Source: Alphaproteobacteria bacterium
Lineage (GTDB): Bacteria; Pseudomonadota; Alphaproteobacteria; JACAEB01
Assembly (NCBI GenBank): GCA_013389075.1
Contig: JACAEB010000020.1
Coordinates: 1-37,803 of the forward strand
Direction of reading: 5' to 3'
DNA: 37,803 bases
Positions 8,130-37,493 of this stretch are shown piece after piece. Position 1 is the stretch's first letter. Each line of letters starts with the position of its first letter. Under the pieces are notes generated by a model that saw only the letters and a program-made list of their open reading frames with translations, made no database searches and was not told where the DNA came from. The position numbers and the translations under genes are program-made.

Positions 8130-8180
8130 TTCCCCCACTCCCTGAGCTTTGCCTCGCTGCACGCCCGAGGCGGGGCCGGG

Positions 8181-9196: not shown

Positions 9197-9198
9197 GG

Positions 9199-9221
9199 GG
9201 GGCGGGGACTTGACCCGCCCC
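9199..9221. terminator. stem-loop between convergent genes (possible terminator)
   Basis: GGGGCGGG / CCCGCCCC with a 7-nt loop; no clear T-run. Confidence 0.35.
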
Positions 9222-9259
9222 GCCCGAAGGATCCCCGGATTCAGATTGCTTTCATGACC

Positions 9260-10201: not shown

Positions 10202-10257
10202 AAGAATCTCTCCTCAGGCTCAAGAGTTGCAGAGAAGTGCGTCTGGTTCCGGCGCTC

Positions 10258-11877: not shown

Positions 11878-11903
11878 GAACCATTCTCCTCGCTTCCGGA
11901 CCT

Positions 11904-13493: not shown

Positions 13494-13498
13494 CCTGA

Positions 13499-14503: not shown

Positions 14504-14590
14504 TTCGGCACCTTCCCAAATTCTGCAAAGCCAAAGACGGGTCCGCCGGCCCCGGCTCGCTGCCGAGGCCGGATCTTCCGGTGTTCCAGG

Positions 14591-16726: not shown

Positions 16727-16777
16727 TGGACACTCCCCTCAATTGACGTTTCGGCCGTTGAACACCGGCCCCTTCAG

Positions 16778-16805
16778 TGTCGACATATTTGATTCAAAGT
16801 CAACA
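16778..16805. promoter_or_regulatory. candidate GntR operator: TGTCGACA-N13-GTCAACA
   Basis: Palindrome TGTCGACA plus a related GTCAACA arm in the TBDR/GntR divergent gap. The same pair recurs at 22020-22048. Confidence 0.5.
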
Positions 16806-16890
16806 TTGATCGAGGCCTTGACCTGGATCACCGCTGCCGATCACATCGCCCGCACGTGCGGCCCGGCCGCCCCCGAATCCGGAAAGGACC

Positions 16891-17658: not shown

Positions 17659-17671
17659 GCCCTGAACAAGA

Positions 17672-18619
17672 TCACCCCGTCGTGAGAGGGCTGCCATTTC
17701 CCCCTCGGATGAACGCGTCCAGGATCTCCGCCAGCAGCGGTCCGGCATCTTCCTGGATCATGTGTCCGGCCTTTGCGATGACCCTGTGCTGACGCCCCCG
17801 AGCCCCCGCAGCCGCCTCCTGAAGCATGCGGTCCCAGGTGCCGGTTGCGACCGGATCATCGGCGCCGAAGACCGTCAGGAGTGGTGTGTTGATGTGCCCG
17901 AGCGCGGCCAGCGCCTTGCGGTTGTCGCGAGCGCCCTCATCCTCGGGTGACACCGGTATGAGCTGTGGAAACCGTCGGGCAGCAGTCTTGTAGGTCTCGG
18001 ACGGAAAAGGGGCGTCATAGGCGCGCCGCTCGTCCGGCGAGAGGCCGCATGTGGTCAGTTGGCTGACGATCTGGCCAACCGGCAACACGGGCGTGAGACG
18101 CGCAAACAGCCTCCAGACATGAACGAAGGGTGAGAGCCTGCGTCCGTCGGGCAGGCCCGTGTTCGCAGCACAAACGCTCAGAAAGAGGTCTGGCTTTTCG
18201 GCAGCGAGGCGCAGTCCGATCAATCCGCCCCAGTCCTGGCAAAAGAGGTGGACCGGGGCAATGCGGGTCGCTTCGATGAAGGACGCCATCCAGGCAACGT
18301 GCCGACGATAGGTGTAAAGCGCAGGATCGGTGGGCTTGTCAGACCGGCCGAAACCGATCAGGTCGGGCGCGATGGCCCGGTAGCCGCGCGACACCAGCCC
18401 CGGGATCACCTTCCTGTACAGATAGGACCAGGAGGGCTCGCCGTGCAGAAGAAGGATCCGCACGCCGTCGCGCGGGCCCTCGTCGAGATAATGCTGACGG
18501 ATCACTCCCACATCCGGGTCTGCGATCTCCACATAGTGCGGCGCGAAAGGAAAGTCTGGAAGATCGGCGAACCGATCATCCGGCGTCCGAAGAACGGGCG
18601 ACTGCAGCTGCACGGCCAT
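17672..18619 (-). CDS. haloalkane dehalogenase (HLD-I-like)
   Basis: HGEPSWSYLYRKVIPGLVSRGYRAIAPDLIGFGRSDKP; nucleophile FCQDWGGLIGLRLA; YDAPFPSETYKTAARRFPQLIP; FGADDPV; AGHMIQEDAG. Confidence 0.87.
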   Translation of the reverse strand: MAVQLQSPVLRTPDDRFADLPDFPFAPHYVEIADPDVGVIRQHYLDEGPRDGVRILLLHGEPSWSYLYRKVIPGLVSRGYRAIAPDLIGFGRSDKPTDPALYTYRRHVAWMASFIEATRIAPVHLFCQDWGGLIGLRLAAEKPDLFLSVCAANTGLPDGRRLSPFVHVWRLFARLTPVLPVGQIVSQLTTCGLSPDERRAYDAPFPSETYKTAARRFPQLIPVSPEDEGARDNRKALAALGHINTPLLTVFGADDPVATGTWDRMLQEAAAGARGRQHRVIAKAGHMIQEDAGPLLAEILDAFIRGGNGSPLTTG

Positions 18620-18629
18620 GATGACGCTC

Positions 18630-19502
18630 TCAACCGATGACCGGCTGAGGGACCTCGGCCAGGACAGTGTTCTCAAGCACGCCCAGCCCTTCGACTTCGA
18701 TCCTGATGCTGTCGCCCGGGCGAAGGAATCTCGGTGGCTTGAAGGCCCCTCCCACACCCGCCGGGGTTCCCGTGAACAGGATGTCGCCCGGTTCGAGGGT
18801 GAACGCGGTCGTGAGATGGGCGATCTGGTCGAAACAGTTGAAGACAAGATGGCGTGTGTTCGAGTTCTGGCGCAGCTCCCCGTTGACCCAGCATCTGATA
18901 TCCAGCGCATGCGGATCGGCGATCTCGTCCGACGTCACGATAAAGGGACCGATGGGTCCGTGCGTGTCAAAGGACTTGCCGATCGTCATGGTCGGAGTTC
19001 GCAGCTGCCAATCCCGCACGCTGACGTCGTTGCCCACGCAGAACCCGAAGATCACCTCGCCTGCCCGCTCACGCGGCACGTGACGGCACCGCTTGCCGAT
19101 CACGACGCAAACCTCCGCCTCGTAATCGAGATAATCGCTGACGGCGGGCTTGGCGATTGGCTCGCCGCTCCCGATGACGCAGGTCGACTGCTTGTTGAAC
19201 CAGAGCTGGTGCTCCGGACGCTGCATGCCGCTCTCCTCGATATGGTCGGCATAATTGAGACCGATCGCGAGGATCTTTGGTGGACGGAGGATAGGGGCTC
19301 GCAGCGAGACATCCGCAAGCGGAACAGCTGTCGCGGTCTCGAGAACAGTGCGTATGCGCTCAAGGAGCGGCCGGCCGGCGGCGATCAGCCTGGTCATTTC
19401 GTTGGGGATGGCCGGATCCTCTGCGCTCAGATCGACGATCCCCTCGCCCTTGACCGCACCGACCGCTGTCCGCCCACGGTACTCGAAAGTTCCCAGTTTC
19501 AT
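18630..19502 (-). CDS. fumarylacetoacetate hydrolase (FAH) family protein
   Basis: ILAIGLNYADHIEESGM; DYLDYEAEVCVVIGKRCRHV; GFCVGNDVSVRDWQ; FDTHGPIGPFIVTSDEIADP; LEPGDILFTGTPAGVG. Confidence 0.93.
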   Translation of the reverse strand: MKLGTFEYRGRTAVGAVKGEGIVDLSAEDPAIPNEMTRLIAAGRPLLERIRTVLETATAVPLADVSLRAPILRPPKILAIGLNYADHIEESGMQRPEHQLWFNKQSTCVIGSGEPIAKPAVSDYLDYEAEVCVVIGKRCRHVPRERAGEVIFGFCVGNDVSVRDWQLRTPTMTIGKSFDTHGPIGPFIVTSDEIADPHALDIRCWVNGELRQNSNTRHLVFNCFDQIAHLTTAFTLEPGDILFTGTPAGVGGAFKPPRFLRPGDSIRIEVEGLGVLENTVLAEVPQPVIG

Positions 19503-19519
19503 TCCTGCCTCTCCGTACC

Positions 19520-20443
19520 CTAATTGTGCTGCAGATCGAGATGCGGTCCCCATTGCGTCTCGATCAGCTTGTTGACGGGATGCCGCCCCGCCGGCGCATC
19601 GGCGGGGAGCATGTCGCCATCCGTCCAATGCTCGAGCTGATTGCCCCACGGATCACGCCAGTAATCGAATATCTGACTGCCGAGGATGTGACGGCCAATG
19701 CCCCATGAGTGTCGGTGCCCCGCCTTCTTCATGTGGTCGTGCCCGGCCATGACGGCATTGACATCGGTGACCTCGAAGGCGGCATGGCCGAAGCCCGGTC
19801 GTCCCATTTGCAGCAGAACGAGCGTGTGATGATCGACAGGTTGCCGGCCGCGATCCACCCGCATGAAGGCACCGATAAGACCCTCGACACCATCCATGTA
19901 GATTTCGTCAGACGACAGAAAGCCGAACCGTTCCTTGTACCAGGCCTCGCTTTCGCGAAAGTCCTTGCATTCGATGACGCAGTGTCCGAGCCGCTTCACC
20001 TCGGCCGGCCCCTGTGTCACCGTCAACCGGCCCGACCGCGGCTTGTCCTGCGCCGTGTTGACGATGGCGGCCGGCTTCGCGGGCAAAGGCTTGGACTTAC
20101 GGCCTCCGGCAAAGACCTCGATCGTGAAGCCCCCCGGATCGGTGAGACGGACGCAGGAACCGCCGCCCGGCCCATCCTGTGCTGCGACCTCGACATGTTC
20201 GGCGCGGGCGAGACGCTCGACGTCTCGCTCGCTCGCGGCCCGCAGCCCGATACCGAGGAAAGCGGGGGCTCCCGGCTCGGTGACATGGCAATAGGGACTG
20301 TCACCCGTTCCCCGCATGTAGAGCCGGTCGGTTTCCCGACCAGCGCGTACAAGGCCGAAATCCGTGAGGAATGCTTCCATCTGGTCGAGATCGGGGGCAC
20401 GAAAGCGCACATAGCCAATGTCGTGGATCTTGATGATGGCCAT
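19520..20443 (-). CDS. VOC family extradiol (catechol 2,3-dioxygenase-like) dioxygenase
   Basis: Two VOC modules; putative ligands in RLGHCVIECKDF, GFGHAAFEV and GNQLEHWTDGD (2-His-1-Glu pattern). Confidence 0.83.
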   Translation of the reverse strand: MAIIKIHDIGYVRFRAPDLDQMEAFLTDFGLVRAGRETDRLYMRGTGDSPYCHVTEPGAPAFLGIGLRAASERDVERLARAEHVEVAAQDGPGGGSCVRLTDPGGFTIEVFAGGRKSKPLPAKPAAIVNTAQDKPRSGRLTVTQGPAEVKRLGHCVIECKDFRESEAWYKERFGFLSSDEIYMDGVEGLIGAFMRVDRGRQPVDHHTLVLLQMGRPGFGHAAFEVTDVNAVMAGHDHMKKAGHRHSWGIGRHILGSQIFDYWRDPWGNQLEHWTDGDMLPADAPAGRHPVNKLIETQWGPHLDLQHN

Positions 20444-21957
20444 CAGCGCGCCTCCTTCAGTCTCGCTTGCTCTGTATCAGGATGGATGATCACCTTGCCT
20501 CTGGCCTCACCGCTCGCAAGGCGGATCATGGCGGCAGCGATGTCGCGGAGAGGATAGTGCCGATCCAGAATCGGCCGGATCCGGCCCTGCCCAGCCCAGC
20601 CGGCCAGCCGCTCGAGTGCCGCCCGATTCGGCTGGAAGAGGACCCACTGCACGCCGACGCCCAGCTTGCTCGCCTCACGACGCTGCTCGGCCAGCACACG
20701 CTTCGCCTTGATTGGTCCAAGGAGCAGTCCGTGCTTGTCCACAAGGGCAAGGGTCGGATGAATGGTCGTCGCGAACACGCCACCGCCTTTCTTCAGTATG
20801 CCAAGCATCCGGTCGAACTCGGAGGGATCAGCAGAACAAAGAGCGATATCGTAGTCCCGCAAGCTCGCCGCATAGTCGCTTGATCCAACCGGATGAACCT
20901 CATCCGCTCCGAGCGCCTGAACGGCCTCGACTTCGTGCGCGCGACAGCTCGCGGCAACGTGGGCCCCGAGCGCCTTGGCAATCTGGACCGCCATCGAGCC
21001 GACGCCTCCAGCACCCCCTTGCACGAAGACACGCGCATCCCCTGCGCCATCGTCCGAGAGCGGTCCCTGACCGACGAGGCCTGCCCAGGCGGTCAGAAAG
21101 CAATAGGGCATGGCAGCCGCCGACTCCGGTGAAAGACCCTCGGGCACTGCGACGACATGCTCGGCCGCCAGGATGACATGGCTTGCGAGCGTGCCGTCCC
21201 GCGACGGCGGCTTTGCGCCGAAGACCATGTCGCCTGCCGAACATCCGCTTACGCCGGACCCGACAGCCTCGACCACTCCGCATACATCGGTTCCGAGCGT
21301 CAGCGGAAATCCGCCTGCCTTGCGGATCCTGAAGAGTCTGGCGCCATAGCCCGACATCCGCATCACGTCGATGTGGTTCAGCGAAGCGGCCAGGATGCGC
21401 ACCCTTACCTCGCCAGGCCCGGGCGGCAGCCTTGGCCGGGTATCATTGACCCGAAGGACCTCTTGGGGCGGACCGAAGCGCCATTGAAGGGCAGCCGTAA
21501 TCTTCTGCTCCGGGGATTGTTCGAGAATGCGCTTGAGATTGCCGAGCCCCGCCCTTAGACGCGGGCGCAGGACCGCCCGCATCAGCCGGAAGGCAAGAGC
21601 GACGGATGCACCCCTGGCCCGCGCCTCACACCGCCAGCGGAACTCGGTTCGCTCCGCCCCCCGTTCGACGACTTCATAGGTGAACTTCGGAAGGACGGGC
21701 GCAAGGTCTGGATGAATGACGAGCCTCCGGCCCCGCTCGAATTCGGCGATTTCGACCGAAACGGCCTCCTCCCGGCCCGGCGGCACGACGGCGATCTCGT
21801 TGTAGCGCTTGCCGATCGTGCCGTCCGGCAGATCATCCGCGCTGCGCATCTGAACCACACCCGGAAACCAGTCCGGGTAGTTCTCGAGATGGCTCACAAA
21901 GGCGAACACCGCTTCGGCAGGGCGCGCAATCTCAATGGTGTCGGCCAGGACGAGCAT
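20443..21957 (-). CDS. SRPBCC (polyketide cyclase/dehydrase-like) - MDR zinc-type alcohol dehydrogenase/quinone oxidoreductase fusion
   Basis: N-terminus MLVLADTIEIARPAEAVFAFVSHLENYPDWFPGVVQMRS (SRPBCC), then GPGEVRVRILAASLNHIDVMRMSGYG, LGTDVCGVVEAVGSGV, VFVQGGAGGVGSMAVQIAKALGAHVAASC (MDR) in one uninterrupted frame. Confidence 0.85.
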   Translation of the reverse strand: MLVLADTIEIARPAEAVFAFVSHLENYPDWFPGVVQMRSADDLPDGTIGKRYNEIAVVPPGREEAVSVEIAEFERGRRLVIHPDLAPVLPKFTYEVVERGAERTEFRWRCEARARGASVALAFRLMRAVLRPRLRAGLGNLKRILEQSPEQKITAALQWRFGPPQEVLRVNDTRPRLPPGPGEVRVRILAASLNHIDVMRMSGYGARLFRIRKAGGFPLTLGTDVCGVVEAVGSGVSGCSAGDMVFGAKPPSRDGTLASHVILAAEHVVAVPEGLSPESAAAMPYCFLTAWAGLVGQGPLSDDGAGDARVFVQGGAGGVGSMAVQIAKALGAHVAASCRAHEVEAVQALGADEVHPVGSSDYAASLRDYDIALCSADPSEFDRMLGILKKGGGVFATTIHPTLALVDKHGLLLGPIKAKRVLAEQRREASKLGVGVQWVLFQPNRAALERLAGWAGQGRIRPILDRHYPLRDIAAAMIRLASGEARGKVIIHPDTEQARLKEAR

Positions 21958-22019
21958 GACGCCACTCCGCATGCGCGCCTCAAGTGGCGCCGGTGGACAG
22001 GGGAACGACGAGGATTGAA

Positions 22020-22048
22020 TGTCGACAATAGGTCGCCCTATGTCAACA
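22020..22048. promoter_or_regulatory. candidate GntR operator: TGTCGACA-N14-GTCAACA upstream of the SRPBCC-MDR operon
   Basis: Same motif pair as 16778-16805; internal near-palindrome TGTCGACAATAGG...CCTATGTCAACA. Confidence 0.5.
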
Positions 22049-22065
22049 CATTCGATTTCACTCCC

Positions 22066-22929
22066 TCACACGCCACCCGGGCTGTACCGCGCGGCGAAGG
22101 AGGCGGTGGCTGCAATGACAGCAATGCCGACAATCGCCTCAGCGAGGATGGATCCGCTCAGAACGGCTCCCGCGCCTGCCCGTCCCCCTCGCAGGCGGTC
22201 CGTCAGAAGAAACCGGTGAAGAGCCGCGAAGCCGATCAGGATCCCGACAAGGCTCAGCTTGACCAGAAGGCCCCGGCCCCAATCCGTTCCCAGCCACAGC
22301 CAGGGCCATTGCGCCGACAGCAACCCTGCGAGCGCCCCGCCCGCGAGGACCAGCACGATCAGTCCGGTCGCCGCGCGCCGCGCGAAGGCATCCATGAGCT
22401 GCGCCGCAATGTCGGGCGTATCCTGACGCGCGGCCGCCGCCAAAGGTGCAAGCGACCCGAGCCAGAACGAGGCGGCTATCACATGGAGACCGATGGCAAG
22501 CTGCAGGACCGGCCGGGGATCGTGAGAGACCACGTGGCCCGAAAAGGCGAAGGACGCCGACAAGATGACCGCCGCCCCGACCGCCGCCACCCTTGAGCCT
22601 TGCGCCAGCCAGACGCCCAGAAGGGCCAGTCCCGCCAGCCGCATCCCGAGACTGATCCCGTTCGTCTCCAGATAAAGCTGGACCGTGTACGGATCGACGG
22701 CACCTGCCCAATCACCCCCGATCGCGAGCAAGGTGACGGCGGCCAGCAGGCTCAGGCCCACGAGCGCCGCGACAAGCGCCACGACACCCGTCCGGCGGGC
22801 GGTCCTGTCGGCGGGCGCCGACCGCCCGCCGAGCGAAGCGGCGTAGAGGGCACTGCCGATGCTCCACACGAGACCAAGCGTCGCCAGGATCCGGATGGAG
22901 AGGTGCGCGAGCTCGAAGCCCGGGCTCAT
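22066..22929 (-). CDS. copD: copper resistance protein CopD family membrane protein
   Basis: Multi-TM protein; SASFAFSGHVVSHDPRPVLQLAIGLHVIAASFWLGSLAPLAAA, GRGLLVKLSLVGILIGFAALHRF; adjacent to copC. Confidence 0.88.
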   Translation of the reverse strand: MSPGFELAHLSIRILATLGLVWSIGSALYAASLGGRSAPADRTARRTGVVALVAALVGLSLLAAVTLLAIGGDWAGAVDPYTVQLYLETNGISLGMRLAGLALLGVWLAQGSRVAAVGAAVILSASFAFSGHVVSHDPRPVLQLAIGLHVIAASFWLGSLAPLAAAARQDTPDIAAQLMDAFARRAATGLIVLVLAGGALAGLLSAQWPWLWLGTDWGRGLLVKLSLVGILIGFAALHRFLLTDRLRGGRAGAGAVLSGSILAEAIVGIAVIAATASFAARYSPGGV

Positions 22930-24339: not shown

Positions 24340-24355
24340 ATGAATGACCATTCAT
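24340..24355. promoter_or_regulatory. candidate TetR operator palindrome ATGAATG-AC-CATTCAT
   Basis: Perfect 7-bp arms in the divergent gap between the His-rich protein gene and the TetR gene. Confidence 0.6.
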
Positions 24356-24470
24356 TTCATGTCAAGTCGCCGGTGGAACACCCGCACGTTCCGTTGACCC
24401 TGAAGACCTCATGCCGTTCAATCACGGGGACTCTTGCCCTTCAGGCGCGTCCTTCGGAGACGATCGAGCG

Positions 24471-25172
24471 ATGTCACTCAGCGGTGCACTGCCCGCCCTT
24501 CAGGACCGGAGCCGCGACAGCCGAGACAGGATCCTCGAGGCGGCCGAGGAAGCGTTCTCCGAAAACGGCTTCGCGGGCGCAAAGCTCACCGACATCGCGG
24601 AACGGGCAGGCCTGGCGGTCGGAACGATCTACAATCGGTTCACGGACAAGGATGGCCTCTTCACCGCCGTGCTCGACAATTACGTTCGGACCACACGCTA
24701 TCTGATCGAGACGGGCGTCGACTGGGAAGGTCAGCGAAAGTCTCCGGCAGGAGACATCCTCCAGAATTTCGTCTTCGGCAGCTTCGAGAACCTTCTGCGA
24801 AACAAGGGTCTCATGCGCGCCATCATCGAACGCAGCCTGTCGGATCCATCCGCCTACGCTCCCCTGGCCGGTCTTGCCGACAATGTCGAGGACAGGTTCC
24901 ACTCGCTCCTTCGCCTGCACCCCGAGTTCAAGCGATCGAGCACGTTGCGCAGCGAGATTTCCCTCGCATTCCGCCTGATCAACGGAACGTTCATGGATCT
25001 GCTTGTCCGGGGACAGCTCACGAACCATTCGATATGCCAGACGAGCGTCCATTACCTGACAGAATTGCTGGTGGCTCGCTTTGGGTGCAAGCCGCCCTCG
25101 CGCAAGCGCACGTTCGATCCCACCCACGCAATGCGCATACGGCAGAGACCTCCGCCTGGGGACAATAGGTGA
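24471..25172 (+). CDS. TetR/AcrR family transcriptional regulator
   Basis: RDRILEAAEEAFSENGFAGAKLTDIAERAGLAVGTIYNRFTDKDGLFTAVLDNY. Confidence 0.92.
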   Translation: MSLSGALPALQDRSRDSRDRILEAAEEAFSENGFAGAKLTDIAERAGLAVGTIYNRFTDKDGLFTAVLDNYVRTTRYLIETGVDWEGQRKSPAGDILQNFVFGSFENLLRNKGLMRAIIERSLSDPSAYAPLAGLADNVEDRFHSLLRLHPEFKRSSTLRSEISLAFRLINGTFMDLLVRGQLTNHSICQTSVHYLTELLVARFGCKPPSRKRTFDPTHAMRIRQRPPPGDNR

Positions 25173-25260: not shown

Positions 25261-27087
25261 TCATTCGCCCGCTTCAATCCAGATGGGAGAGGTGTAGGCT
25301 CGCTCCTGGATGGTCGAGGGCACATCGGCAGGTGTCGGCAGGCCAAGTTCGATCGCATCCAGGGTCGTCCACCGCGGCGTCGGAATCTCGAGGACGCGCA
25401 CGTAATAGGCGGCCTGCGCAGCCGGATCGTATGCCGGATCCTTCCAGACGGCACCGAGCTGAACCGCCCCGATGCTGTTCGTGTAGCGCCCGGTCACGAG
25501 ATCGACGGTATTGCCGACGGGGGGAACCGCTCCGGTCTTCGGATCCGCCATCCGGCCATCGGACAGAGCGACATCGAAGATGTCTTCGCCGCTTGCTCCT
25601 CGCTTGCTCCACACTTTGACGATCTGTATGCGGTCGAGATTGGCTCCCTCCGGATCTTTCGCGGCGCTGACCAGAAAGACCGGTCCGTCTCCCGCTCGGG
25701 CCTTCAGCGAGCCCCCCATGGGCACGCCCCGCGCGTAAGCGTCCGATACCCATCCGCCCACGCCCGGTTCGAGCCCATCAAGATTCCATCCGGCAAAGAG
25801 ACGAACCGTGATCCGGGGGCCGGTCGTCGCATAGGTTTCCTTCCGGGCCAGGGCGTCGAACAGCGCCTCCCGCGAGTTCTCGGCCGCCCAGATACCGGTC
25901 AGCCCCGAGGCACCATATTTGCGCAAGCGGCCCGCGTTCGCCCGGCGCTCCGCGGTCGCGTCACTCGCACCATGGTTGCCATGAAATCGTGCTTCATCGA
26001 TCTGTGGCAGACCGTTGTGCGTGTCGGTCGCACCGACCAGGCCGAACTTGTACGGATTGAAACCGTCCGACTCCTGGAACGTCACGCCTGTCCGAAGCGC
26101 GTCGCGGACATATCCGCCCGCGAAGTTCGTCACCGGCAACTGCGATCCAAACCGCTGCTCGATGATCTCGAAGTCTGCAAACTCGTCGGTCAGCGAAAGC
26201 GCGGGATGGGTCTCCGACGTCCCCTTTGTCTGTGTCACTTCAACAAGGGGCTCGTTGGCCATGCGCCGAGAGGCGTAGGTCGCCGTCAGCGCCCCGCCAT
26301 ACGAATCCTGGAGCGGAAACATGAGGCCATTCGAGCTGTTCGAGTTGTGGGGGATCGCGAGAACAGAATGTCCGTCGCGGCGCGCGTCCTCCATGTAGGT
26401 CCAGAGATCTTCGGGCCGCACACTGACGTCCGAGCTGAACGGCAATGGCGCGGTGTCGCCACGGAAGATGACATTGCGGTGCAAATTCTGCCCGTCTGGA
26501 GCCGCGCTCCATTCGAAGGCGATGAAGCTCGTGAATTCGCCGGGCCTGTTGGCCACATTCGCCGCACTGATTTCGTCATCCCATGCGTCGCGGATGATCT
26601 CGGGAAGAAGCGCGGGATCTCCCCCGAGAGCCTCGGCGGTCCGCCCCTGCATCGAGGCGATGCGGAATCGAATGTAGGCTGCGCGGGACTTCGCCGGATC
26701 GGGATCGTTGATTCCTTCCGCAAGCCCGAACTTCGACGCCGGGCTATCAGGATCCGAGGTCGCACGAAACACACCCATGAACTCCGCGTGGTCGGTCACG
26801 GCCAGAAAGTCGAGAGGCCGATCGAGCTGGAGCTTGTGCCCGCTCGGATGCAGAACCGGCTCGCCGCGCGCGAAGGCATACGCGTCCGCTGGTGTGGCAA
26901 GGGTCTTGAACGAGAAGGCGTCCAGGGAATAGGACGTGTGCACGTGCAAGTCGCCGAAATACACGTGGGTTTCAGCCTTCCCGGCCTCCTCCGCTCCGAC
27001 GGGATCAGAGGCAGCGAATACACCGAGGCCGACGATCAGCGCCGCACCAAGGTGCAATGCGCGATCAGAACCGAGAATCCGTGTCAT
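25261..27087 (-). CDS. DUF3604 domain protein (PHP-like putative metallo-hydrolase), exported
   Basis: 608 aa; signal peptide; VYFGDLHVHTSYSLDAFSF, LAVTDHAEFMGVF, AIPHNSNSSNG, GLVGATDTHNGLP, C-terminal AYTSPIWI. Confidence 0.88.
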   Translation of the reverse strand: MTRILGSDRALHLGAALIVGLGVFAASDPVGAEEAGKAETHVYFGDLHVHTSYSLDAFSFKTLATPADAYAFARGEPVLHPSGHKLQLDRPLDFLAVTDHAEFMGVFRATSDPDSPASKFGLAEGINDPDPAKSRAAYIRFRIASMQGRTAEALGGDPALLPEIIRDAWDDEISAANVANRPGEFTSFIAFEWSAAPDGQNLHRNVIFRGDTAPLPFSSDVSVRPEDLWTYMEDARRDGHSVLAIPHNSNSSNGLMFPLQDSYGGALTATYASRRMANEPLVEVTQTKGTSETHPALSLTDEFADFEIIEQRFGSQLPVTNFAGGYVRDALRTGVTFQESDGFNPYKFGLVGATDTHNGLPQIDEARFHGNHGASDATAERRANAGRLRKYGASGLTGIWAAENSREALFDALARKETYATTGPRITVRLFAGWNLDGLEPGVGGWVSDAYARGVPMGGSLKARAGDGPVFLVSAAKDPEGANLDRIQIVKVWSKRGASGEDIFDVALSDGRMADPKTGAVPPVGNTVDLVTGRYTNSIGAVQLGAVWKDPAYDPAAQAAYYVRVLEIPTPRWTTLDAIELGLPTPADVPSTIQERAYTSPIWIEAGE

Positions 27088-27107: not shown

Positions 27108-27422
27108 CTACGGGTAGCGCTGTTTCAGAAACGCGACCAGATCAGCGAGTTCAGTGTCGCTGAAGCCGAACGCAGGCATGGTTGGATTCGCAGGCGCCAG
27201 AATGAGGCTGGACAATTCTTCGTCCGTATAGGTTGAAAGCGCGACGAGCGGACGCCCACCCTCGCCATGGCAACCCATACAGCCGTTGGCGGTGAAGATG
27301 GCCTCACCCCGCAGGAGTGCGTCGGCGGCCAAATCCGCACCTTCAGCATTCGTCCTGTCGGAGCCGACCCCCACAAGAAGCGACAGGGCCAGCAACAACA
27401 GGCCGGGGACTGCAAGTCTCAC
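27108..27422 (-). CDS. c-type cytochrome (monohaem, exported)
   Basis: GTG start at 27422, signal peptide, GEAIFTANGCMGCHGEGG (CxxCH), MPAFGFSDTELADLVAFLKQRYP (distal Met). Confidence 0.85.
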   Translation of the reverse strand: MRLAVPGLLLLALSLLVGVGSDRTNAEGADLAADALLRGEAIFTANGCMGCHGEGGRPLVALSTYTDEELSSLILAPANPTMPAFGFSDTELADLVAFLKQRYP

Positions 27423-27435
27423 ACTCTGTCTCCGT

Positions 27436-29463
27436 TCAGTCCGCGAGTGCAAAAGCGACAAGCTGATGGGGCGGGCCCGCGTTGGTCTGCGTCCCTCTGT
27501 CGGTTCCACCAAGAGCGACGACGATGAACTGGCGTCCATTGACCATGTAGGACATCGGTGCCGCGCCCCAATACGTGCTCGGAAGATCGTAGGACCACAG
27601 AACGCTTCCCGTGGCCTTGTCGTGCGCCCTCAGCTTCGGCCGCATTTCGTCGAGCGGCTGCATCTCGCCCCAGTGGCCCCGCTCCGCGCTGAACAGCAAC
27701 GTGCGGGTCGCGATGACGGCACCGAATCCCCATGATCCGAGCGGAGGAAACGTGCGGCCCGCCAGTGCGGGATGCTGATTATACCCCTCGCCAAAAGGCA
27801 CCCGCCAGAGATGTTCACCCGACGTCATGTCGATTGCGGTGATCCGCGCATATGGGGGCCTCGTGATCGGGAAATTGTTCGGCATCGGGATGGTCGTTCG
27901 GCGGAGCCCGTAGGGAACATTCCGTACCGCCGGATCCGTGCGGTCGAGCTCACGGAATTGCATCACGTTGAAACCCGTCCATGACGGCACATAGAAGATC
28001 TGAGACTCCGGATCGAACGCGCCGCCCGTCCAGTTGCCACCGCCGCCCGTGCCCGGCAGGATCAGAGTGGGTTTCGTGCCGATGGGCGTGTAGAGCTCGC
28101 CCGGCCCGGTCTTTGCGAGCAGTTCGCGCGCTGCGGCTTGCAGCTCAGGCGTGAGGTCAACCACCTTATCGTCTGTGATCGGAGGCAGGACATCATAAGG
28201 TGCCGGCTTGACCGGAATGGGTTGCGTCGGCGACGTGTACTCGCCCTTGATGACACTCCTCGGGACCGGGCGCTCTTCGATCGGCCAGACGGGCGTGCCA
28301 TCGCGCCGGTCCAACACGTACAGATAATTTGTCTTGGTGACCTGCGCGAGCGCAGGAATGGCCCGACCGTCTACGGTGATATCCATCAGGACGGGGGCTG
28401 CCGGCAGGTCGTAGTCCCACAGATCGTGATGAATGGTCTGGAAATGCCAAGAGCGCTCTCCGGTCGCCGCCTCAAGAGCCACGATGCTCTGTGTAAAGAG
28501 GTTATCACCGGGCCGCTGAACGCCGATCAGGCTGGTTTCTGCCGAGGTCACCGGGAGATAGACAAGCCCCAGATCCTCATCGCAGCTGGTCATCGACCAG
28601 ACATTGCCCTTCCCCGTGTACCGCCAGCTCTCGTTCTTCCACGTGTCGTTGCCGAACTCACCGTCACGCGGGATGGTATGAAAGACCCACCGAAGCTCGC
28701 CGGTCTCGGCATCGAAGCCCCTGACGTCGCCGCGTGGATGTGTGAGCACGGAATATCCCAAAGGCTCACTGTAATCCACCGAGCCGAAGGTGACGACGGC
28801 TCCAATGACGATGACCCCGTCACACAGCGTGGGGGGAGAGATGAACCCGAACTGCTGCTGGGGAACGCGATCGTTCTGGCGCGGCTCGGGAAAGCGCAGA
28901 AGCTTGCCGACGTCGACGACACCCTCCTGACCGAACCCGACCACGGGCTTGCCGGTGGCGGCGTCGAGCACGAAGAGCCGTCCGTCCGTCGATGCAAAAA
29001 TGATCCGATCGCCGTCAGCCCGCTCCCAGAAGGTCAGCCCGCGCGTGACGTGGCCATAATTGGCCGGCCTTGGTCCGCGATAGGCTTGCGGATCGAACGT
29101 CCAGATGGTCTTTCCCGTTTCCGCATTCACAGCCGCGACGACGCTGAGGGAAGTCCGGACATAGAGCACGCCATCGACGACAAGGGGCGTCGCCCGATTT
29201 CCGCTTGCCCGGGCAATCTGGCCGTCAGGTGTCTGAATGTCCGCGGCATTGATGTCGTTGTCGGGAGACATCCACGTCCACACAACTTCGAGCCGATCGA
29301 GATTCTCTGCGCTGATCTGATCGAGCGGCACGTACTTTGTCGCTGCAAGATCTGCGCTGTAGGCCGGCCAGTCGATGTTTTCCGGATCGCGTGCGATGGC
29401 CATCGACGAGGCGCAGAGCGTGGCGGCGGCAAGCAATGCGGCAAACGTGGATCTCATGGTCAT
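27436..29463 (-). CDS. PQQ-dependent dehydrogenase (quinoprotein glucose/quinate dehydrogenase-like beta-propeller)
   Basis: Signal peptide; DWPAYSADLAATKYVPLDQISAENLDRLEVVWTW; repeated W-motif blades (GKTIWTFDPQAY, GSVLWSYDLPSTYWG); MSYMVNGRQFIVVALGG. No CxxCH haem motif. Confidence 0.92.
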   Translation of the reverse strand: MTMRSTFAALLAAATLCASSMAIARDPENIDWPAYSADLAATKYVPLDQISAENLDRLEVVWTWMSPDNDINAADIQTPDGQIARASGNRATPLVVDGVLYVRTSLSVVAAVNAETGKTIWTFDPQAYRGPRPANYGHVTRGLTFWERADGDRIIFASTDGRLFVLDAATGKPVVGFGQEGVVDVGKLLRFPEPRQNDRVPQQQFGFISPPTLCDGVIVIGAVVTFGSVDYSEPLGYSVLTHPRGDVRGFDAETGELRWVFHTIPRDGEFGNDTWKNESWRYTGKGNVWSMTSCDEDLGLVYLPVTSAETSLIGVQRPGDNLFTQSIVALEAATGERSWHFQTIHHDLWDYDLPAAPVLMDITVDGRAIPALAQVTKTNYLYVLDRRDGTPVWPIEERPVPRSVIKGEYTSPTQPIPVKPAPYDVLPPITDDKVVDLTPELQAAARELLAKTGPGELYTPIGTKPTLILPGTGGGGNWTGGAFDPESQIFYVPSWTGFNVMQFRELDRTDPAVRNVPYGLRRTTIPMPNNFPITRPPYARITAIDMTSGEHLWRVPFGEGYNQHPALAGRTFPPLGSWGFGAVIATRTLLFSAERGHWGEMQPLDEMRPKLRAHDKATGSVLWSYDLPSTYWGAAPMSYMVNGRQFIVVALGGTDRGTQTNAGPPHQLVAFALAD

Positions 29464-29467
29464 TTCC

Positions 29468-30604
29468 TTACCGCCCTTCAGGAGCGAGCAATCCCGGCTC
29501 CGGCTTCTTTCCGTTGCGGATCCAGTCCAAGAGCTGATCGAAGGCAAGAGAAAACTCTTCGCCAACGAGGCTGGGTCCTTCCGTCCGGGTAAAGAACTTC
29601 TGCACGAAGAGATCTGATGTCCCGGCAATCTGGGTCAAGGTGTCGTAGTAGCGTGTCGGCTCCACGGGTGAGACGTCGTCGATGAGCTTGTTCACAGCCA
29701 GCAGCGGACGCTCGATGCGACCCGTTGGGGTATACCACTCCCTGAGATAGGCTTGCGCCGCAGGATCCGCCGTATAGCGGGGAATCTGCGCGTTGATCCG
29801 CGCCTCTTCCTCGGCACTTCCTCCAACCGTATAGATCGTGTTCGTGTTGCTGAATGGATTGCCGCCCGCACGTTCGTTGAGTTCGCGAAGCACTTCGGCA
29901 TAAAATCCGACCGTCCGTGCAAGGCCTTCCGTGTTGCGAAATCCTGCGGCAAGGGCGAAGGCGGCGAGGCGCTCTTCCTGTCCCTCGGTCAGCTCCCGCG
30001 CCTTTGCCACGCTCGCCTGCATGGTCTGGTCGCCGAGCGGGAAGTCGACCACCGACCCCGGCAGCCCGGGAAAATACTGGTCGAACAGAAGGCGGATGTC
30101 GAACAGGCGCTCCTTGAGATGGACCAGCTTTGGCTCGTTGTTGGCTCCACTGGCAAGTCCACCATCATAGACGGTCGGGTACTTCTCCATCATGATGTAG
30201 GTGATGAAGCCCCCCATATGGCTGCCCGCCATGATCGTCAGCTTGGGCCGGCCATGCGTTTCAACGTAATGCCGACGCAGCGCCTCGGTCTCGAGAACAC
30301 CCTGCTCGATCGCGAAACCTTGACGGCTGAAGGCCGATTGCGCGCAGGCGAAACCGCGCTCCATGACGATCGGGCAGACGATTGCGCCCATGTCCCGATC
30401 GAACCCGCGATAGCCCTGGGAGGCGATCTGGTAGCCGTGCGCCCAGAGGACGAGGCCTTCCACCTTTCCATCCGGGATCGAGATCCGATAGGGCGCCCCC
30501 TCCAGCACCCCCTCCTCGACCGTCGGAGCAGCCACGGCGGAACCGGCCAGCAGCCCCGCGACCAAACCTGCAATTGCGCCCGTCCGCGCGCCAGACCTTG
30601 GCAT
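29468..30604 (-). CDS. exported alpha/beta hydrolase with unusual GSHMGG nucleophile-elbow sequence
   Basis: 379 aa; signal peptide; VLWAHGYQIASQGYRGFDRDMGAIVCPIVMERGFACAQSAFSRQGF; LTIMAGSHMGGFITYIMMEKYP. Confidence 0.72.
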   Translation of the reverse strand: MPRSGARTGAIAGLVAGLLAGSAVAAPTVEEGVLEGAPYRISIPDGKVEGLVLWAHGYQIASQGYRGFDRDMGAIVCPIVMERGFACAQSAFSRQGFAIEQGVLETEALRRHYVETHGRPKLTIMAGSHMGGFITYIMMEKYPTVYDGGLASGANNEPKLVHLKERLFDIRLLFDQYFPGLPGSVVDFPLGDQTMQASVAKARELTEGQEERLAAFALAAGFRNTEGLARTVGFYAEVLRELNERAGGNPFSNTNTIYTVGGSAEEEARINAQIPRYTADPAAQAYLREWYTPTGRIERPLLAVNKLIDDVSPVEPTRYYDTLTQIAGTSDLFVQKFFTRTEGPSLVGEEFSLAFDQLLDWIRNGKKPEPGLLAPEGR

Positions 30605-30615
30605 CGCTAGCCCCC

Positions 30616-31620
30616 CTACTTTCTGGTGATACGGGCGATCCCGTCCGTGGCCGTCTCCATCCGGTCCGAAGTCAGAAATTCGAGGGCAGCCGTATCCCCG
30701 TTGACGAACGCATCGAGGAAGGCGGTCGTTGCCGACTTCGTCGCCGCAGCATGTACAGCATCGGGCAGCCACCGTCTCACCCCGGAGTCGGGCGGCTGAG
30801 GAAACTCCGGATCGGGCATGACCGTCATGCCAAAACCGTGATCCACGCCCTCGATGAACACCAGGTATTTATGCGGAGGTGACGAATAGTTGAAGGCATC
30901 GAGGCGCCACGTGTGCGGACGATCTCCTCTTGCCGGGTCCCGGCTGCCCGTCAGCAGCATCATGGGGATCGCGACGTTCGCGAACCCCTCGACCGTCCGG
31001 CCCTCGCCAAGACCTTGACCGGAAAGAGAGATCACGGCTTTGAAGCGGGGGTCGGTGCGGTCGACCGTCAAGCCCTTGCCGTCATCAAGCACGAGACCGG
31101 CCGCCATCATTGCCGTATCCGCCCCGTAGGAGTGGCCGCCGACGGCGATCCGCTCGAGATCGATCCGGCCGTCGAGCCCCGGAACACCCAGCGCATTGAT
31201 CACATCGACGATCGCCGAGAGGTCCTCCGGTCGCCCGAACCTCAGATCGTCGGCGAAGACGGACGGGTCATCCCACGAGTTGCCGAAATCGGAGCTGTCC
31301 TCGTGAGTTGGCTGAATGACGGCATAGCCATGGGACGCCCAGTGGCGGGCCAGTGGGGCGTAAAAATAGCGGGCGGCCCAGGCGCCATGGGAAAACACGA
31401 GGGCCGGCACTTTGTCCGTCCCCGCCGGAAAGGTGATCCTGAGAGGGATTTCCTTACCCCGTTTCTCATCCTTCAAGGTGACGCTGTCCGCCAACTCGAT
31501 GGTACGCGGGCCCGGATCCGCCTTGTACAGATCCTGCCCGCGGACGGATGAGGCTGCGCCCCCGAGACTTGCCATAGTCACCACAACCAATCCGACCTTG
31601 CTCAGTCGCGACATCCGCAT
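30616..31620 (-). CDS. exported alpha/beta hydrolase (chlorophyllase/PAF-acetylhydrolase-like)
   Basis: PALVFSHGAWAARYFYAPLARHWASHGYAVIQPTHEDSSDFG; nucleophile AVGGHSYGADTAMM; GVDHGFG; signal peptide. Confidence 0.83.
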   Translation of the reverse strand: MRMSRLSKVGLVVVTMASLGGAASSVRGQDLYKADPGPRTIELADSVTLKDEKRGKEIPLRITFPAGTDKVPALVFSHGAWAARYFYAPLARHWASHGYAVIQPTHEDSSDFGNSWDDPSVFADDLRFGRPEDLSAIVDVINALGVPGLDGRIDLERIAVGGHSYGADTAMMAAGLVLDDGKGLTVDRTDPRFKAVISLSGQGLGEGRTVEGFANVAIPMMLLTGSRDPARGDRPHTWRLDAFNYSSPPHKYLVFIEGVDHGFGMTVMPDPEFPQPPDSGVRRWLPDAVHAAATKSATTAFLDAFVNGDTAALEFLTSDRMETATDGIARITRK

Positions 31621-31631: not shown

Positions 31632-32624
31632 CTACTTGTACGACAATTTCGCAACGCCGTTCGTCGCCCGCTCCATCTGATCCGACTTCAGATATTCCAG
31701 AGCCGCCTGATCACCGTTGAGGAAGGCATCGAGAAAGGCCGTCGTGGCCGACTTCGTCACAAGTCCGTGAACCGCGTCGTCCCTCCAGGGCCGGACGCCC
31801 GATGGCGGCGGTTGCGGAAACTCCGGGTCCGGCAGAACGGTCTTGCCGAATCCGTGATCGAGACCCTCGACGAACACGAGAAACTTGTTGCCGGGCGTTG
31901 CGTAGGTAAACGGATCAAGACGCCACGTGTATGGGCGGTCGAGCCTCGCCGGATCCCGCGTGCCGGTCATGAACAGCGTGGGAATATCGATTGCGGCGAA
32001 TGCCTCTTTCGTTCGCGATTCATCGAGACCCTGCCCGGACAGCGGCATCATCGCCTTGATGCGCGGGTCGCTGTAATCGACGGCCTCGCCTTTGGAGTTG
32101 AGAGACTTCAGACCGCCCGCCATCATGGTCGTATCCGCGCCGTAGGAGTGCCCCCCTGCCGCGATGCGGTCCTCGTCGATGCGGCCGTCGAGACCGGGCA
32201 CGCCGAGCTGGTTGATGGCGCTGATAATGGCCGAAACATCCTGCGGCCGGCTGTAGCGGATCTCCTCGGAGAACACGACCGGGTCATCCCAGGCGTAGCC
32301 AAAGTCGGAGCTGTCCGCATGGGTGGGCTGAATGACGGCATAGCCGTGCGAGGCCCAATGTCGCGCAAGGGGCGCATAGAAGTACCGCGCCGCCCAGGCC
32401 CCGTGCGAGAACACGAGAGCCGGCACTTTCCCTTCCCCCACCGGGTAGGTGATGCGCAGCGGGATGTCCTTCCCGCGCCGCGCGTCGTGAAGCGTCACAT
32501 CGTCGACCATCCGGATTTCGAACGGACCCGCCTCGGCCTTGTAGAGCTCGGCTGCGAAACCCGACGATGTGGAACCGAGCGCTAGAACGGCGCAAGCAAG
32601 CAGTGCGGTAAGCGCACGACCCAT
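31632..32624 (-). CDS. exported alpha/beta hydrolase, tandem paralogue of 30616-31620
   Basis: PALVFSHGAWAARYFYAPLARHWASHGYAVIQPTHADSSDFG; AAGGHSYGADTTMM; GLDHGFG; signal peptide. Confidence 0.84.
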   Translation of the reverse strand: MGRALTALLACAVLALGSTSSGFAAELYKAEAGPFEIRMVDDVTLHDARRGKDIPLRITYPVGEGKVPALVFSHGAWAARYFYAPLARHWASHGYAVIQPTHADSSDFGYAWDDPVVFSEEIRYSRPQDVSAIISAINQLGVPGLDGRIDEDRIAAGGHSYGADTTMMAGGLKSLNSKGEAVDYSDPRIKAMMPLSGQGLDESRTKEAFAAIDIPTLFMTGTRDPARLDRPYTWRLDPFTYATPGNKFLVFVEGLDHGFGKTVLPDPEFPQPPPSGVRPWRDDAVHGLVTKSATTAFLDAFLNGDQAALEYLKSDQMERATNGVAKLSYK

Positions 32625-32695: not shown

Positions 32696-32723
32696 AGTAT
32701 ATGTACGCTACGTACATTGTCAA
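32696..32723 (-). promoter_or_regulatory. sigma70-like promoter of the hydrolase/PQQ operon with the operator palindrome filling the spacer
   Basis: Minus strand TTGACA (32718-32723) - 16 nt - TATACT (32696-32701). Palindrome ATGTACG-CTA-CGTACAT at 32701-32717. Confidence 0.65.
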
Positions 32724-32754
32724 GCGCCAAACGCGCAAGGGCTGCGAGAGCCTC

Positions 32755-32783
32755 TCGACTCCTCTGTACGTTCCGTACATATT
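32755..32783 (+). promoter_or_regulatory. candidate promoter of the TonB receptor with operator palindrome TGTACG-TTC-CGTACA in the spacer
   Basis: TCGACT (32755-32760) - 17 nt - CATATT (32778-32783); palindrome at 32765-32779. Confidence 0.5.
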
Positions 32784-32862
32784 GGGGGTGGCGGGAAGCT
32801 GATGGCAAGCCTGCCCAAGGAGGGAACGGGCTCCATTGGAGATCACAGGGAGGAAGACGATC

Positions 32863-34980
32863 ATGAGGGGACATCATCGAGAACGCCTGCTGACGACGTC
32901 AAGCATTGTGGGCGTCCTCTTGCTGAGCGGTGCAGGCGTCCAGGCACAGGAAGCGAGCCCGGACGAGATTCTGGTTCAGGCGCGCAAGCGCGCTGAAAGC
33001 CTTCAGAACATCCCCGTGTCCGGGAGCGTTCTTGGGCGCGAGACAGTCGAGGATTTAGGCGGCTTCGTGGATGCCACGCAGATCGGCCAGTACCTGACCG
33101 GCGTTTCCGTCGAAGAAGATGGCAACCCGGAATATTTCATCCGTGGCGCCGGAACCGGCCGCAACCCCTTCGCCGATTCGGCCACGTCTCAACAGCGCAA
33201 CGGTGCCGACATTCAGGGCGGGTTCGGCGGGCGGGCTCTCGGCCGCATGGACACGTTCGATCTGCAGCAGATCGAGGTCTACCGGGGTCCGCAGGGCGCG
33301 CTGTACGGACGGAACGCCGTGGGCGGCGTGATCAACGTCGTGAACCGGGAGCCGCAGCCCTTCTTCGAATATTCCGCCCTCGCCTCATATGAGTTCGAAG
33401 GCAAGGAGACGCGGGCCGAGGCGACGGTCAACTATCCGCTGATCGACAACCGTCTGTTCCTGCGCGTCGGCGGACTCTTCGAGGACGAAGACGGCCTCTA
33501 CTTCAACGAATTTCTGAACGAGCCATCGAACCCCTACGAACTCGGCGGTGGACGGGTAAGCCTCAAGGCCCTGTTCAACGAACGGGTGGACGCGCTTCTG
33601 ATGGTCGACTACGAGCAGGAGAATTACACGAATTACATCTTCTCGACATTCCTGCAGCGGACGGAGGCCGGAGACACGATCGCGGCCGGTGCCGGACGTG
33701 ACGTCGACGGCGTGCCGTTTGGCACGACCCGTGTACCTTTCCCTCCGAATTCGGATGGCGACCCCTATCGTCAGGCCTATGACACATCCGGCTTCTACGA
33801 CAAGAGAACCGTGAACGCCCTTCTCAAGGTCAATGCGGACCTCGGCTTTGCCACGGCTTCATCCACGACCAGCTTCCGCCATCGGATCGTCGACCTGCTG
33901 ACGGACCTCGATGCCTCCTACAATTTCGGCAGTCCGACCTTCATCGGGTACGGTGCCCCTGGTGCCATGTCGCTTCCGACGGCGACCGGCGGAGCTCCTG
34001 CCTCCGCCGCCACCTGCCGGAACACGTCCGCCGCCATTGTGCCAGCGGCCGTGACCTATACCGGGTATGACTGCACCATCACGTGGCTGACGGAATCCTC
34101 TTCCTTCGGCCAGGAGTTCAAGTTCGTGTCGCCGGGCCAGTCGCGTCTGCAGTGGCTCGCCGGGGTCGACTACAGATATTTCAACAATCCCTACTTCCAG
34201 GACACGGCCGGTCTAGCGGTCTTGGCCGCCGCCGTGACGAACCAGAGCATCGACGCCGAGTCGGAAAACCACAGCTTCGGAGCCTTCGGTACGGTGAACT
34301 ACAGCCTCACCGACAGGTTCGACCTGGCGGGTAGCGCGCGATATTCCTACGAGCGCAAGGGCTTCCGCTCAGTGACGATCGACACGAGCGAAGGCGACCT
34401 CATTCTCGACTTCGAGGATGCCCGCACGACGCAGCAGATCGATCCGTCCCTTTCGCTCACCTACACGCGCGAGGGCGGCGGCATCGTCTATGCCTCCTGG
34501 GCACAGGCCCACAGGTCCGGCGGGTTCAACCGTGCATCTGGCGCCTCCGACGTGGGCATCTTCGTCCCCTTCGAATTCGAAGATGAGAAGGCCAATTCCT
34601 ACGAGCTTGGCATCAAGGGCGACTTCGGCTTCGCAGGCGGCCGGATGGACTACAGTGTCACCGCCTATCGCGTCGACTATCAGGATGTGATCCAGAACGT
34701 CACCATCGTCGGCCTCATTGACGAGAGTGGCGACCCCCTCTCGAGTGGCAACAACCTCCTGAACGTCGGCGACGCCTATGTGCAGGGCGTCGAGGCCGAA
34801 CTGAGGGGACTGGCACCGGATTTTCTGGGTACGTCCGGCTCGCTCGCCTATCTCCAGGGAATCAGCTTCTCCGAAAGCAAGATCACGAGCGGGCTCCTCG
34901 AGGGGAGCGCCCTCACCCAGATCCCGCGCTGGTCCCTGAACGGAAACTACACCTACCGGCGTGCATTGCCCTTGCTCTAG
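32863..34980 (+). CDS. TonB-dependent receptor, ends prematurely at an in-frame TAG
   Basis: Signal peptide; ILVQARKRAESLQNIPVSGSVL (TonB-box/plug), QQIEVYRGPQGALYGRNAVGGVINVVNREP; barrel strands run up to YTYRRALPLL-TAG. Confidence 0.9.
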   Translation: MRGHHRERLLTTSSIVGVLLLSGAGVQAQEASPDEILVQARKRAESLQNIPVSGSVLGRETVEDLGGFVDATQIGQYLTGVSVEEDGNPEYFIRGAGTGRNPFADSATSQQRNGADIQGGFGGRALGRMDTFDLQQIEVYRGPQGALYGRNAVGGVINVVNREPQPFFEYSALASYEFEGKETRAEATVNYPLIDNRLFLRVGGLFEDEDGLYFNEFLNEPSNPYELGGGRVSLKALFNERVDALLMVDYEQENYTNYIFSTFLQRTEAGDTIAAGAGRDVDGVPFGTTRVPFPPNSDGDPYRQAYDTSGFYDKRTVNALLKVNADLGFATASSTTSFRHRIVDLLTDLDASYNFGSPTFIGYGAPGAMSLPTATGGAPASAATCRNTSAAIVPAAVTYTGYDCTITWLTESSSFGQEFKFVSPGQSRLQWLAGVDYRYFNNPYFQDTAGLAVLAAAVTNQSIDAESENHSFGAFGTVNYSLTDRFDLAGSARYSYERKGFRSVTIDTSEGDLILDFEDARTTQQIDPSLSLTYTREGGGIVYASWAQAHRSGGFNRASGASDVGIFVPFEFEDEKANSYELGIKGDFGFAGGRMDYSVTAYRVDYQDVIQNVTIVGLIDESGDPLSSGNNLLNVGDAYVQGVEAELRGLAPDFLGTSGSLAYLQGISFSESKITSGLLEGSALTQIPRWSLNGNYTYRRALPLL

Positions 34981-35277
34981 AACAGCGGCCTGCGCCTCTT
35001 TCTCAACACGAGCTGGGAAATGGAAGCCGGCGCGTACCAGACCTTCGCCACCAAAGCGGACACGCGAAAGCTGTGGGACCTGCAGGGCGGGATAGAAGGC
35101 GAAACGATGGGACAAAGCTGGCAGCTGATCGGCTTCTGGAAGAACTGGTGGGACGTGAACTACGCCATCACGCAACGCAGCTACGCGCAGCCCGGCGGAG
35201 CGGCGGCCGTGCCGACAGTCTTCGAGAATCCCCAATCCACCTATGGTGTCCGTTTCACCATTCGTGGCCGTAGCTGA
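34981..35277 (+). pseudogene. detached C-terminal part of the TonB-dependent receptor (in frame after the amber codon)
   Basis: Same frame continues NSGLRLFLNTSWEMEAGAYQTFATKADTRKLWDLQGGIEGETMGQSWQLIGFWKNWWDVNYAITQRSY...PQSTYGVRFTIRGRS-stop, which looks like TBDR terminal beta-strands. Confidence 0.75.
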
Positions 35278-35446
35278 ATGGCGAGACAGGCTCGCCGTTC
35301 CTGATGGTCTTGAAATTTGCGTCGGGTGCCCGGCTTTGCTATCAGCCTGGCACCCGCACGCAGCGGCGAGCGATGAAACCCCGTTCGTGAAGCCGCTGAC
35401 CGAAAGACCTGTTTTCCCGTGTGTGGGGCCAACACGTGGAGAATGC

Positions 35447-36130
35447 ATGGGATCATCCCTCGCCTCGCATGCCGATCACTCTCCGACACGCAAGCGGATG
35501 CGCCGGTCGGATCGGCGCCATCAATTGCTATCGCTCGCGGAAGAAATTCTGCTCGAGGACGGGGGCAGCGCCGCCCTGACCATGGAACGGCTCGCGGAAA
35601 AGGCGGGCATCGCCAAGACCGTTGTCTATAGCCACTTTTCCAATGCCTCGGAGGTCAGCCTTGCCGTTCTTGAGCGGCACTGGACGGATCTGCACGACCA
35701 GTTTGTCGAAGCCACGCGGCACGAGCCGAGCGTCACCGGCAAGCTGGAGATCATGGTGAGGATCTATTTCGGCGCGTCCGCAGACCGTCGGATGCAGCTT
35801 CGCCGTCTCTTCTTCAAGATTTTGCACGACCCCAAAGTCTCCGCCGAAATGCGAGCGCGTCAGCAAGCCCTCGAGACGGAAGCCGTCCGATTGCTGATGG
35901 AAGAGACGGAGATCGATGCGAGAGACGCCCCGCTGGTCGCCAACTTCCTCTTGGGTGCCGTCGGCCGCGTCGGGAGCAGAAAATTCGACACGCCTCAGGA
36001 CTTCGAGAATGCCGTCGCAGGATTCTTGCAAATGGCGACAGCTGTCATTCAGAGCATGCAGAAGACCAAGGCAGCTCGGCCTCGTGGCAGAACCTCCTTG
36101 GGTGACCGCGGGGCCCGACGCTCGTCCTGA
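35447..36130 (+). CDS. TetR family transcriptional regulator
   Basis: RRHQLLSLAEEILLEDGGSAALTMERLAEKAGIAKTVVYSHFSNASEVSLAVLERHW. Confidence 0.9.
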   Translation: MGSSLASHADHSPTRKRMRRSDRRHQLLSLAEEILLEDGGSAALTMERLAEKAGIAKTVVYSHFSNASEVSLAVLERHWTDLHDQFVEATRHEPSVTGKLEIMVRIYFGASADRRMQLRRLFFKILHDPKVSAEMRARQQALETEAVRLLMEETEIDARDAPLVANFLLGAVGRVGSRKFDTPQDFENAVAGFLQMATAVIQSMQKTKAARPRGRTSLGDRGARRSS

Positions 36131-36206
36131 CACCGCCTTCCGAAACGTCTCAGCTCGACTGGAACCGAGTGCCTGCCCTGCTGATGCTCGCGAACCGCTG
36201 ATCCGG

Positions 36207-36243
36207 TTGATACCCGGCGCCTGAATATGTACGATACGTACAA
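36207..36243 (+). promoter_or_regulatory. candidate promoter of the serine hydrolase, overlapped by operator palindrome TGTACG-ATA-CGTACA
   Basis: TTGATA (36207-36212) - 17 nt - TACGAT (36230-36235); palindrome at 36228-36242. Confidence 0.5.
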
Positions 36244-36287: not shown

Positions 36288-37493
36288 ATGATCAAGCGCA
36301 CAGCCCTCTCGATTGTGCTCGCAATGGCGAGCCTGAGTGCCGCGTCCGGCTCCCCCGCACAGGCAGCCGAGGGTGGTGACGCCATCACCCGACGGATGAA
36401 GGCGGCGATCGCCGAGGGGACCCTTCCGGGGGCTATCGTCCTTGTACGGAAGGATGGGAAGACGGTCTATGAGGAGACCTTCGGCTTCGCTGACCGCGAG
36501 GCCGGGAGAGCCCAGAAGCTGGACGATCTCTTCAACCTGGGCTCCACGTCGAAGCCCGTTGCAATGAGCGTCATCCTCACAGAAGTCGCTGCAGGCAGGA
36601 TGGGTCTTGACGATCCGATCTCCAGATGGTTCCCCGGATATGGCGGTGGGCGGCTTGCCGACGGCTCTGCTTCCGAACGCATGCCGATCGTTCGGGAAAT
36701 GATGGCTCACATATCCGGAACATTCTCCTTGAGATGCAGTGAGCGGCGGCAACTGGCGCTCCTGTACATGTTTGGCCGCACACTGAGGGAATCGGCCGAG
36801 GCCATAGCAGCCGAACCCCTTGTCGATCAGCCTGGCAGCAGCTTCTGCTATGGCGGCCCCTCGATGCAGGTCGCGGGCCGCGTCGCCGAGATCACCTCCG
36901 GCAACGATTTTGAGACGCTGGCCAGGACCCGCGTCTTCGACCCGTTGGGGATGGACAGCACGTTCTATACGTCCTCCCGGTCAGTGGCAGACAGGCTGTC
37001 GGTCATCTATGCTCCTGGAACGGACGGAAAGCTGGAACGATCGCCAAGGATGAGAAACCCGGAAGGCGAGAGCTTTGTCCTTGTGCCCGGGGGGCTCTAT
37101 TCAACCGCTTCCGACCTCGCACGCTTTCTCGAGGCCTTCCTGAGCGGAGGAGAACTCGAAGGCCAGCGTGTTCTGCCGGACAGCCTTGTTCTCGAGGCAC
37201 GCAGGAATCAGATCGGTAGCCTGAAGACCGACCTTGGAGATCCCTCCATCGGTGATCGCAACAGCGCGGCACTTGGTGCGATCGGGGGTTATGGCCTTGG
37301 CTGGATTCTGGACGAAGTGGGGCCTGACGGGCTGGCAAATGTCTACTCCCATGGCGGCGCCTACGGAACATATATCTGGGCCGATCAGCGCGCCCGGCTG
37401 GCCGTGGTCCTGATGACCCAGATCCCGCTCGCTTACGCGACGCCCGTCTGGAATGACGTTTTGCCCTTGATCCGGGCGACCTGGGGCAACTGA
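36288..37493 (+). CDS. exported serine hydrolase, beta-lactamase/class C-like esterase family
   Basis: Signal peptide; NLGSTSKPVAM (SxxK), FCYGGPSMQVAGRVAE (Tyr motif), DPLGMDSTFYT, YGLGWILDE...YSHGGAYGTYIWADQ. Confidence 0.87.
   Translation: MIKRTALSIVLAMASLSAASGSPAQAAEGGDAITRRMKAAIAEGTLPGAIVLVRKDGKTVYEETFGFADREAGRAQKLDDLFNLGSTSKPVAMSVILTEVAAGRMGLDDPISRWFPGYGGGRLADGSASERMPIVREMMAHISGTFSLRCSERRQLALLYMFGRTLRESAEAIAAEPLVDQPGSSFCYGGPSMQVAGRVAEITSGNDFETLARTRVFDPLGMDSTFYTSSRSVADRLSVIYAPGTDGKLERSPRMRNPEGESFVLVPGGLYSTASDLARFLEAFLSGGELEGQRVLPDSLVLEARRNQIGSLKTDLGDPSIGDRNSAALGAIGGYGLGWILDEVGPDGLANVYSHGGAYGTYIWADQRARLAVVLMTQIPLAYATPVWNDVLPLIRATWGN

Follow-up and report, generated by a model that had tools for sequence, protein, structure and literature searches.

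Three copies of the palindrome TGTACG-N3-CGTACA as candidate operators of a local TetR-type repression circuit in an alphaproteobacterium

Three exact copies of the palindrome TGTACG-N3-CGTACA, clustered within 3.5 kb of alphaproteobacterial DNA, are quite probably the operators of one dimeric repressor in a local repression circuit; the repressor is most likely the TetR-type protein TetR1 (35447..36130, plus strand). The window, meaning the whole stretch of DNA analysed, covers 37,803 nucleotides (positions 1-37,803 of contig JACAEB010000020.1, assembly GCA_013389075.1, Alphaproteobacteria bacterium, JACAEB01). The assembly comprises 2,742,039 bases in 237 contigs and is 83.7% complete, with ~16% of the genome missing; genome-wide motif counts are pattern searches of this assembly.

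The sequences and coordinates reported for the palindromes in the earlier note are exact. Candidate operator site 1 (32702-32716) extends to a 17-bp version, ATGTACG-CTA-CGTACAT (32701..32717); site 2 reads TGTACG-TTC-CGTACA (32765..32779) and site 3 reads TGTACG-ATA-CGTACA (36228..36242). The earlier note placed them upstream of a hydrolase/PQQ operon, a TonB-dependent receptor (TBDR), and a β-lactamase-like hydrolase, and all three are indeed upstream of these units and intergenic, in a window that is ~91% coding by the analysis's own gene set. Sites 1 and 2, with centres 63 bp apart, share the divergent gap between the minus-strand unit and the TBDR gene.

Within the assembly, the motif occurs at this locus only. 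Scattered genomic copies would have spoken against a local regulon, as the earlier note recognized, and the 2.74-Mb assembly holds three exact copies, all in the window. One-mismatch copies are absent, and the 34 matches at two mismatches are at background level; the reversed pattern has no exact match. Relaxing the search to GTACG-N(0-9)-CGTAC recovers the same three sites, every one with a gap of N3. GTACG-gap-CGTAC is rarer genome-wide than its reversed control (three vs 73 matches), and GTAC is rarer than CATG in the window (51 vs 160). A motif-agnostic scan (6-bp arms, gaps 0-10) finds no other type of inverted repeat more than once in the window, and seven of 200 Markov simulations of a 37.8-kb window contained some inverted-repeat type three times, anywhere. 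Repetition by itself is only mildly unusual; the case gains its weight from the way the sites cluster, lie between genes, and overlap promoters, together with the motif's absence from the rest of the genome.

Promoter-like sequences in the region number three, vs 0.5 expected. Predicted promoter P1 (32696..32723, minus strand) has the form TTGACA-16-TATACT with 11/12 consensus matches in the promoter scan, and site 1 is exactly its 16-bp spacer, as the earlier note had described. Predicted promoter P3 (36207..36235, plus strand; TTGATA-17-TACGAT, 9/12, promoter scan) precedes the esterase gene, and site 3 covers its -10 region. Site 2, centred 91 bp upstream of the TBDR start, overlaps a weak, putative promoter P2 (32755..32783, plus strand; TCGACT-17-CATATT, 8/12), a pair under the scan threshold and read by eye. 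Overlap with a promoter, claimed earlier for every site, thus holds at sites 1 and 3 by the scan and at site 2 extends to this weak pair only. At sites 1 and 3 palindromic operators lie over the promoters of adjacent units, a placement that fits the proposed repression by steric block.

The genes behind these promoters form a cluster for uptake and breakdown. The P1 unit (minus strand) begins with an exported-type alpha/beta hydrolase (31632..32624) resembling PAF-AH, chlorophyllase, and PETase, followed by a paralogue of the same type, 66% identical to it (30616..31620), a tannase-like hydrolase with a weak match to DUF6351 (29468..30604), a PQQ-dependent dehydrogenase reading frame (27436..29628), a c-type cytochrome (27108..27539), and finally a DUF3604 protein (25261..27087). 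Because these genes are tightly packed on the same strand, they probably form one operon. On the plus strand lie the TBDR (32863..35277) and a serine beta-lactamase-fold esterase (36288..37493), whose closest solved relatives are carboxylesterases. The TBDR frame is broken by a TAG at 34978-34980, which reflects a nonsense mutation or else an error in the assembled sequence; after this codon it runs on to a normal-looking C-terminus at ~35277. The motif is missing ahead of the genome's third hydrolase paralogue (C92, 47%), no close relative of the tannase-like gene was found in the class, and a search with polyvinyl alcohol as candidate substrate gave no match. The adjacent catabolic island (3916-22929) encodes an FMO-like monooxygenase, two sulfatases, a second TBDR, a PhyH dioxygenase, a GntR/FCD regulator, alpha/beta hydrolases, an FAA hydrolase, a glyoxalase-fold dioxygenase-like protein, an SRPBCC-ADH fusion, and a second DUF3604 protein.

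TetR1 is most likely the reader of the sites, a reading based on position and exclusion. Its gene sits between two site-bearing units, and the protein matches the Pfam TetR_N profile with 29.2 bits (cut-off 24), in line with membership of the TetR/AcrR family. The earlier note named this gene as the regulator, and it stands as the best candidate. The same note saw no copy of the motif in the gap upstream of TetR1, and there is none. The promoter scan found no promoter-like sequence in this ~170-bp gap either, and its sole terminator-like sequence is at chance level. TetR1 may be cotranscribed with the TBDR gene, and hence be autoregulated via site 2.

Searches for TetR1 relatives in the class (385 genomes), the phylum (399), the genome_contigs set, viral contigs, and plasmids returned distant TetRs only and no close relative; the best matches reach ~40-45%, over the HTH region only. 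The genome is the sole representative of its family and order in the searched set. The genomes searched yielded no homologous locus, and two distant TetR loci that were inspected (L039, L069) lack a good copy of the motif. Since no orthologous locus was found, the pairing of TetR1 with the sites is drawn from this one genome rather than from co-occurrence. The nearest characterized relative in sequence and fold searches is FasR of Mycobacterium tuberculosis, the fold model being weak: the single-sequence AlphaFold model shows nine helices at pLDDT 73.8, too weak to interpret, and its PDB matches have low TM-scores. Against the FasR family NF053731 (NCBIfam), TetR1 scores 66.3 of 330 bits, below the cut-off. 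With the match so far under the cut-off and the model weak, a fatty-acyl-type ligand is a lead only.

Elsewhere in the class the motif behaves differently. The 384 other genomes contain 29 exact copies of TGTACG-N3-CGTACA, spread over 22 genomes; all were retrieved and their neighbourhoods checked with the TetR profile, which found no TetR gene beside any of them. Most (26/29) lie inside predicted ORFs, including one recurrent copy with an AAG spacer that appears in several genomes inside ORFs of similar size, and three are intergenic (L046, L055, L067). These 29 copies look like chance background, and the present locus is unlike that pattern. A regulon conserved across the class is ruled out, as the copies are mostly coding and the intergenic three have no TetR gene nearby. 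At L067:6001-6015, a single TGTACGGAGCGTACA occupies the divergent gap that separates a ROK-family gene from a gene for a periplasmic sugar-binding protein, with ABC transporter genes adjoining; it may be a genuine operator serving some unrelated regulator.

The alternative that survives best, though improbable, is that another regulator reads the sites: the second TetR of the window (TetR2, 24411-25172), the GntR/FCD protein encoded at 16891, or a regulator from an unlinked gene, for instance an IclR. The lack of a site at the TetR1 gene itself speaks for it, and the reader gene could lie elsewhere in the genome or in the missing part. The half-site GTACG...CGTAC also resembles the IclR type GTNCG-N5-6-CGNAC (PMC13273656), including GTACGCAGAGCGTAC of CatR (PMC8222616), and that group likewise controls catabolic operons. 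The IclR spacing is 5-6, whereas all three copies here have N3 and the other spacings from 0 to 9 are absent genome-wide; no IclR was found in the window, and the other contigs of the genome offer just two HTH_IclR matches, both marginal at 24 bits, in ORFs of 182 and 120 aa. The surroundings of the GntR and TetR2 genes contain no copy of TGTACG-N3-CGTACA. TetR2 has a different, perfect palindrome in its own divergent gap (ATGAATGACCATTCAT, 24340-24355), where TGAATG-N2-CATTCA has its sole exact genomic match; it is probably the autoregulatory operator of TetR2. Because TetR2 has this unique palindrome of its own, it is probably not the reader of the TGTACG sites.

It is less probable still that TetR1 binds the sites but activates at least one of the promoters. 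FasR, its best match, is a TetR-type activator (PMC7382501) and gives this reading its precedent, but the similarity of 66 of 330 bits is far under the family cut-off, and FasR activates fas-acpS in an unrelated gene context. Moreover, with site 1 filling the -35/-10 spacer and site 3 covering the -10 element, both occupy polymerase-blocking positions, and repression rather than activation is most likely. Chance palindromes or a structural repeat with no regulatory role are very unlikely: the seven simulated windows leave some room for them, against sites that are unique genome-wide, intergenic in three of three cases, exact in their N3 gap, and overlapping promoters, and against a class background that is mostly coding.

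In the preferred reading, repression by TetR1, the circuit would work as follows. Without inducer, a TetR1 dimer would occupy the -35/-10 spacer of the minus-strand hydrolase/PQQ promoter, cover the esterase -10 region, and sit on the TBDR promoter, so that RNA polymerase would be blocked. A ligand derived from the substrate would free TetR1 from the DNA; the remote kinship with FasR prompts the guess that this ligand is probably hydrophobic or acyl-like. Release would then jointly switch on uptake by the TBDR, ester cleavage by the four hydrolases, and periplasmic oxidation by the PQQ dehydrogenase and cytochrome c. Several points count against the TetR1 circuit: no site precedes the regulator gene, the genomes searched show no orthologous locus in which TetR and site co-occur, site 2 has only a weak promoter, the TBDR has an in-frame stop, and the regulator may be encoded outside this locus.

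Such a layout has precedents. MbdR of Azoarcus is a TetR repressor of 3-methylbenzoate catabolism whose operators overlap promoters and which is freed by a pathway intermediate (PMC4424350). The likeness extends to the catabolic cluster, to several palindromic operators over -10/-35 or start sites, and to release by an inducer, which is here proposed. MbdR differs in its operator (ATAC-N10-GTAT), in its inducer (3-methylbenzoyl-CoA), and in having operators at its own promoter. AraR of Bacillus subtilis (PMC4218819) has TGTACG/CGTACA half-sites that overlap within its consensus, but it is a GntR-type regulator of arabinose genes, and its half-sites are contiguous without the 3-bp spacer. A literature search for the operator TGTACG-N3-CGTACA found no paper with a match, only related half-sites with other spacings for IclR regulators and AraR; the earlier impression of an undescribed motif agrees with this.

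The type of circuit is well known; novelty appears to lie in the operator, in a TetR that has no close relatives among the genomes searched, and in the pathway with its substrate. Whether a TetR of an unseen sequence group, with an unreported operator, governs a pathway of uptake, de-esterification, and periplasmic oxidation in this lineage only is an even question. The proposed regulator–operator pair is directly testable, and it would mark the genes of one pathway in a lineage without close relatives among the genomes searched. A 15-bp operator inside a strong promoter could also be used as a sensor part. If the hydrolases, PQQ dehydrogenase, cytochrome, DUF3604 protein, and TBDR do share one switch, its inducer would give a clue to their common substrate.
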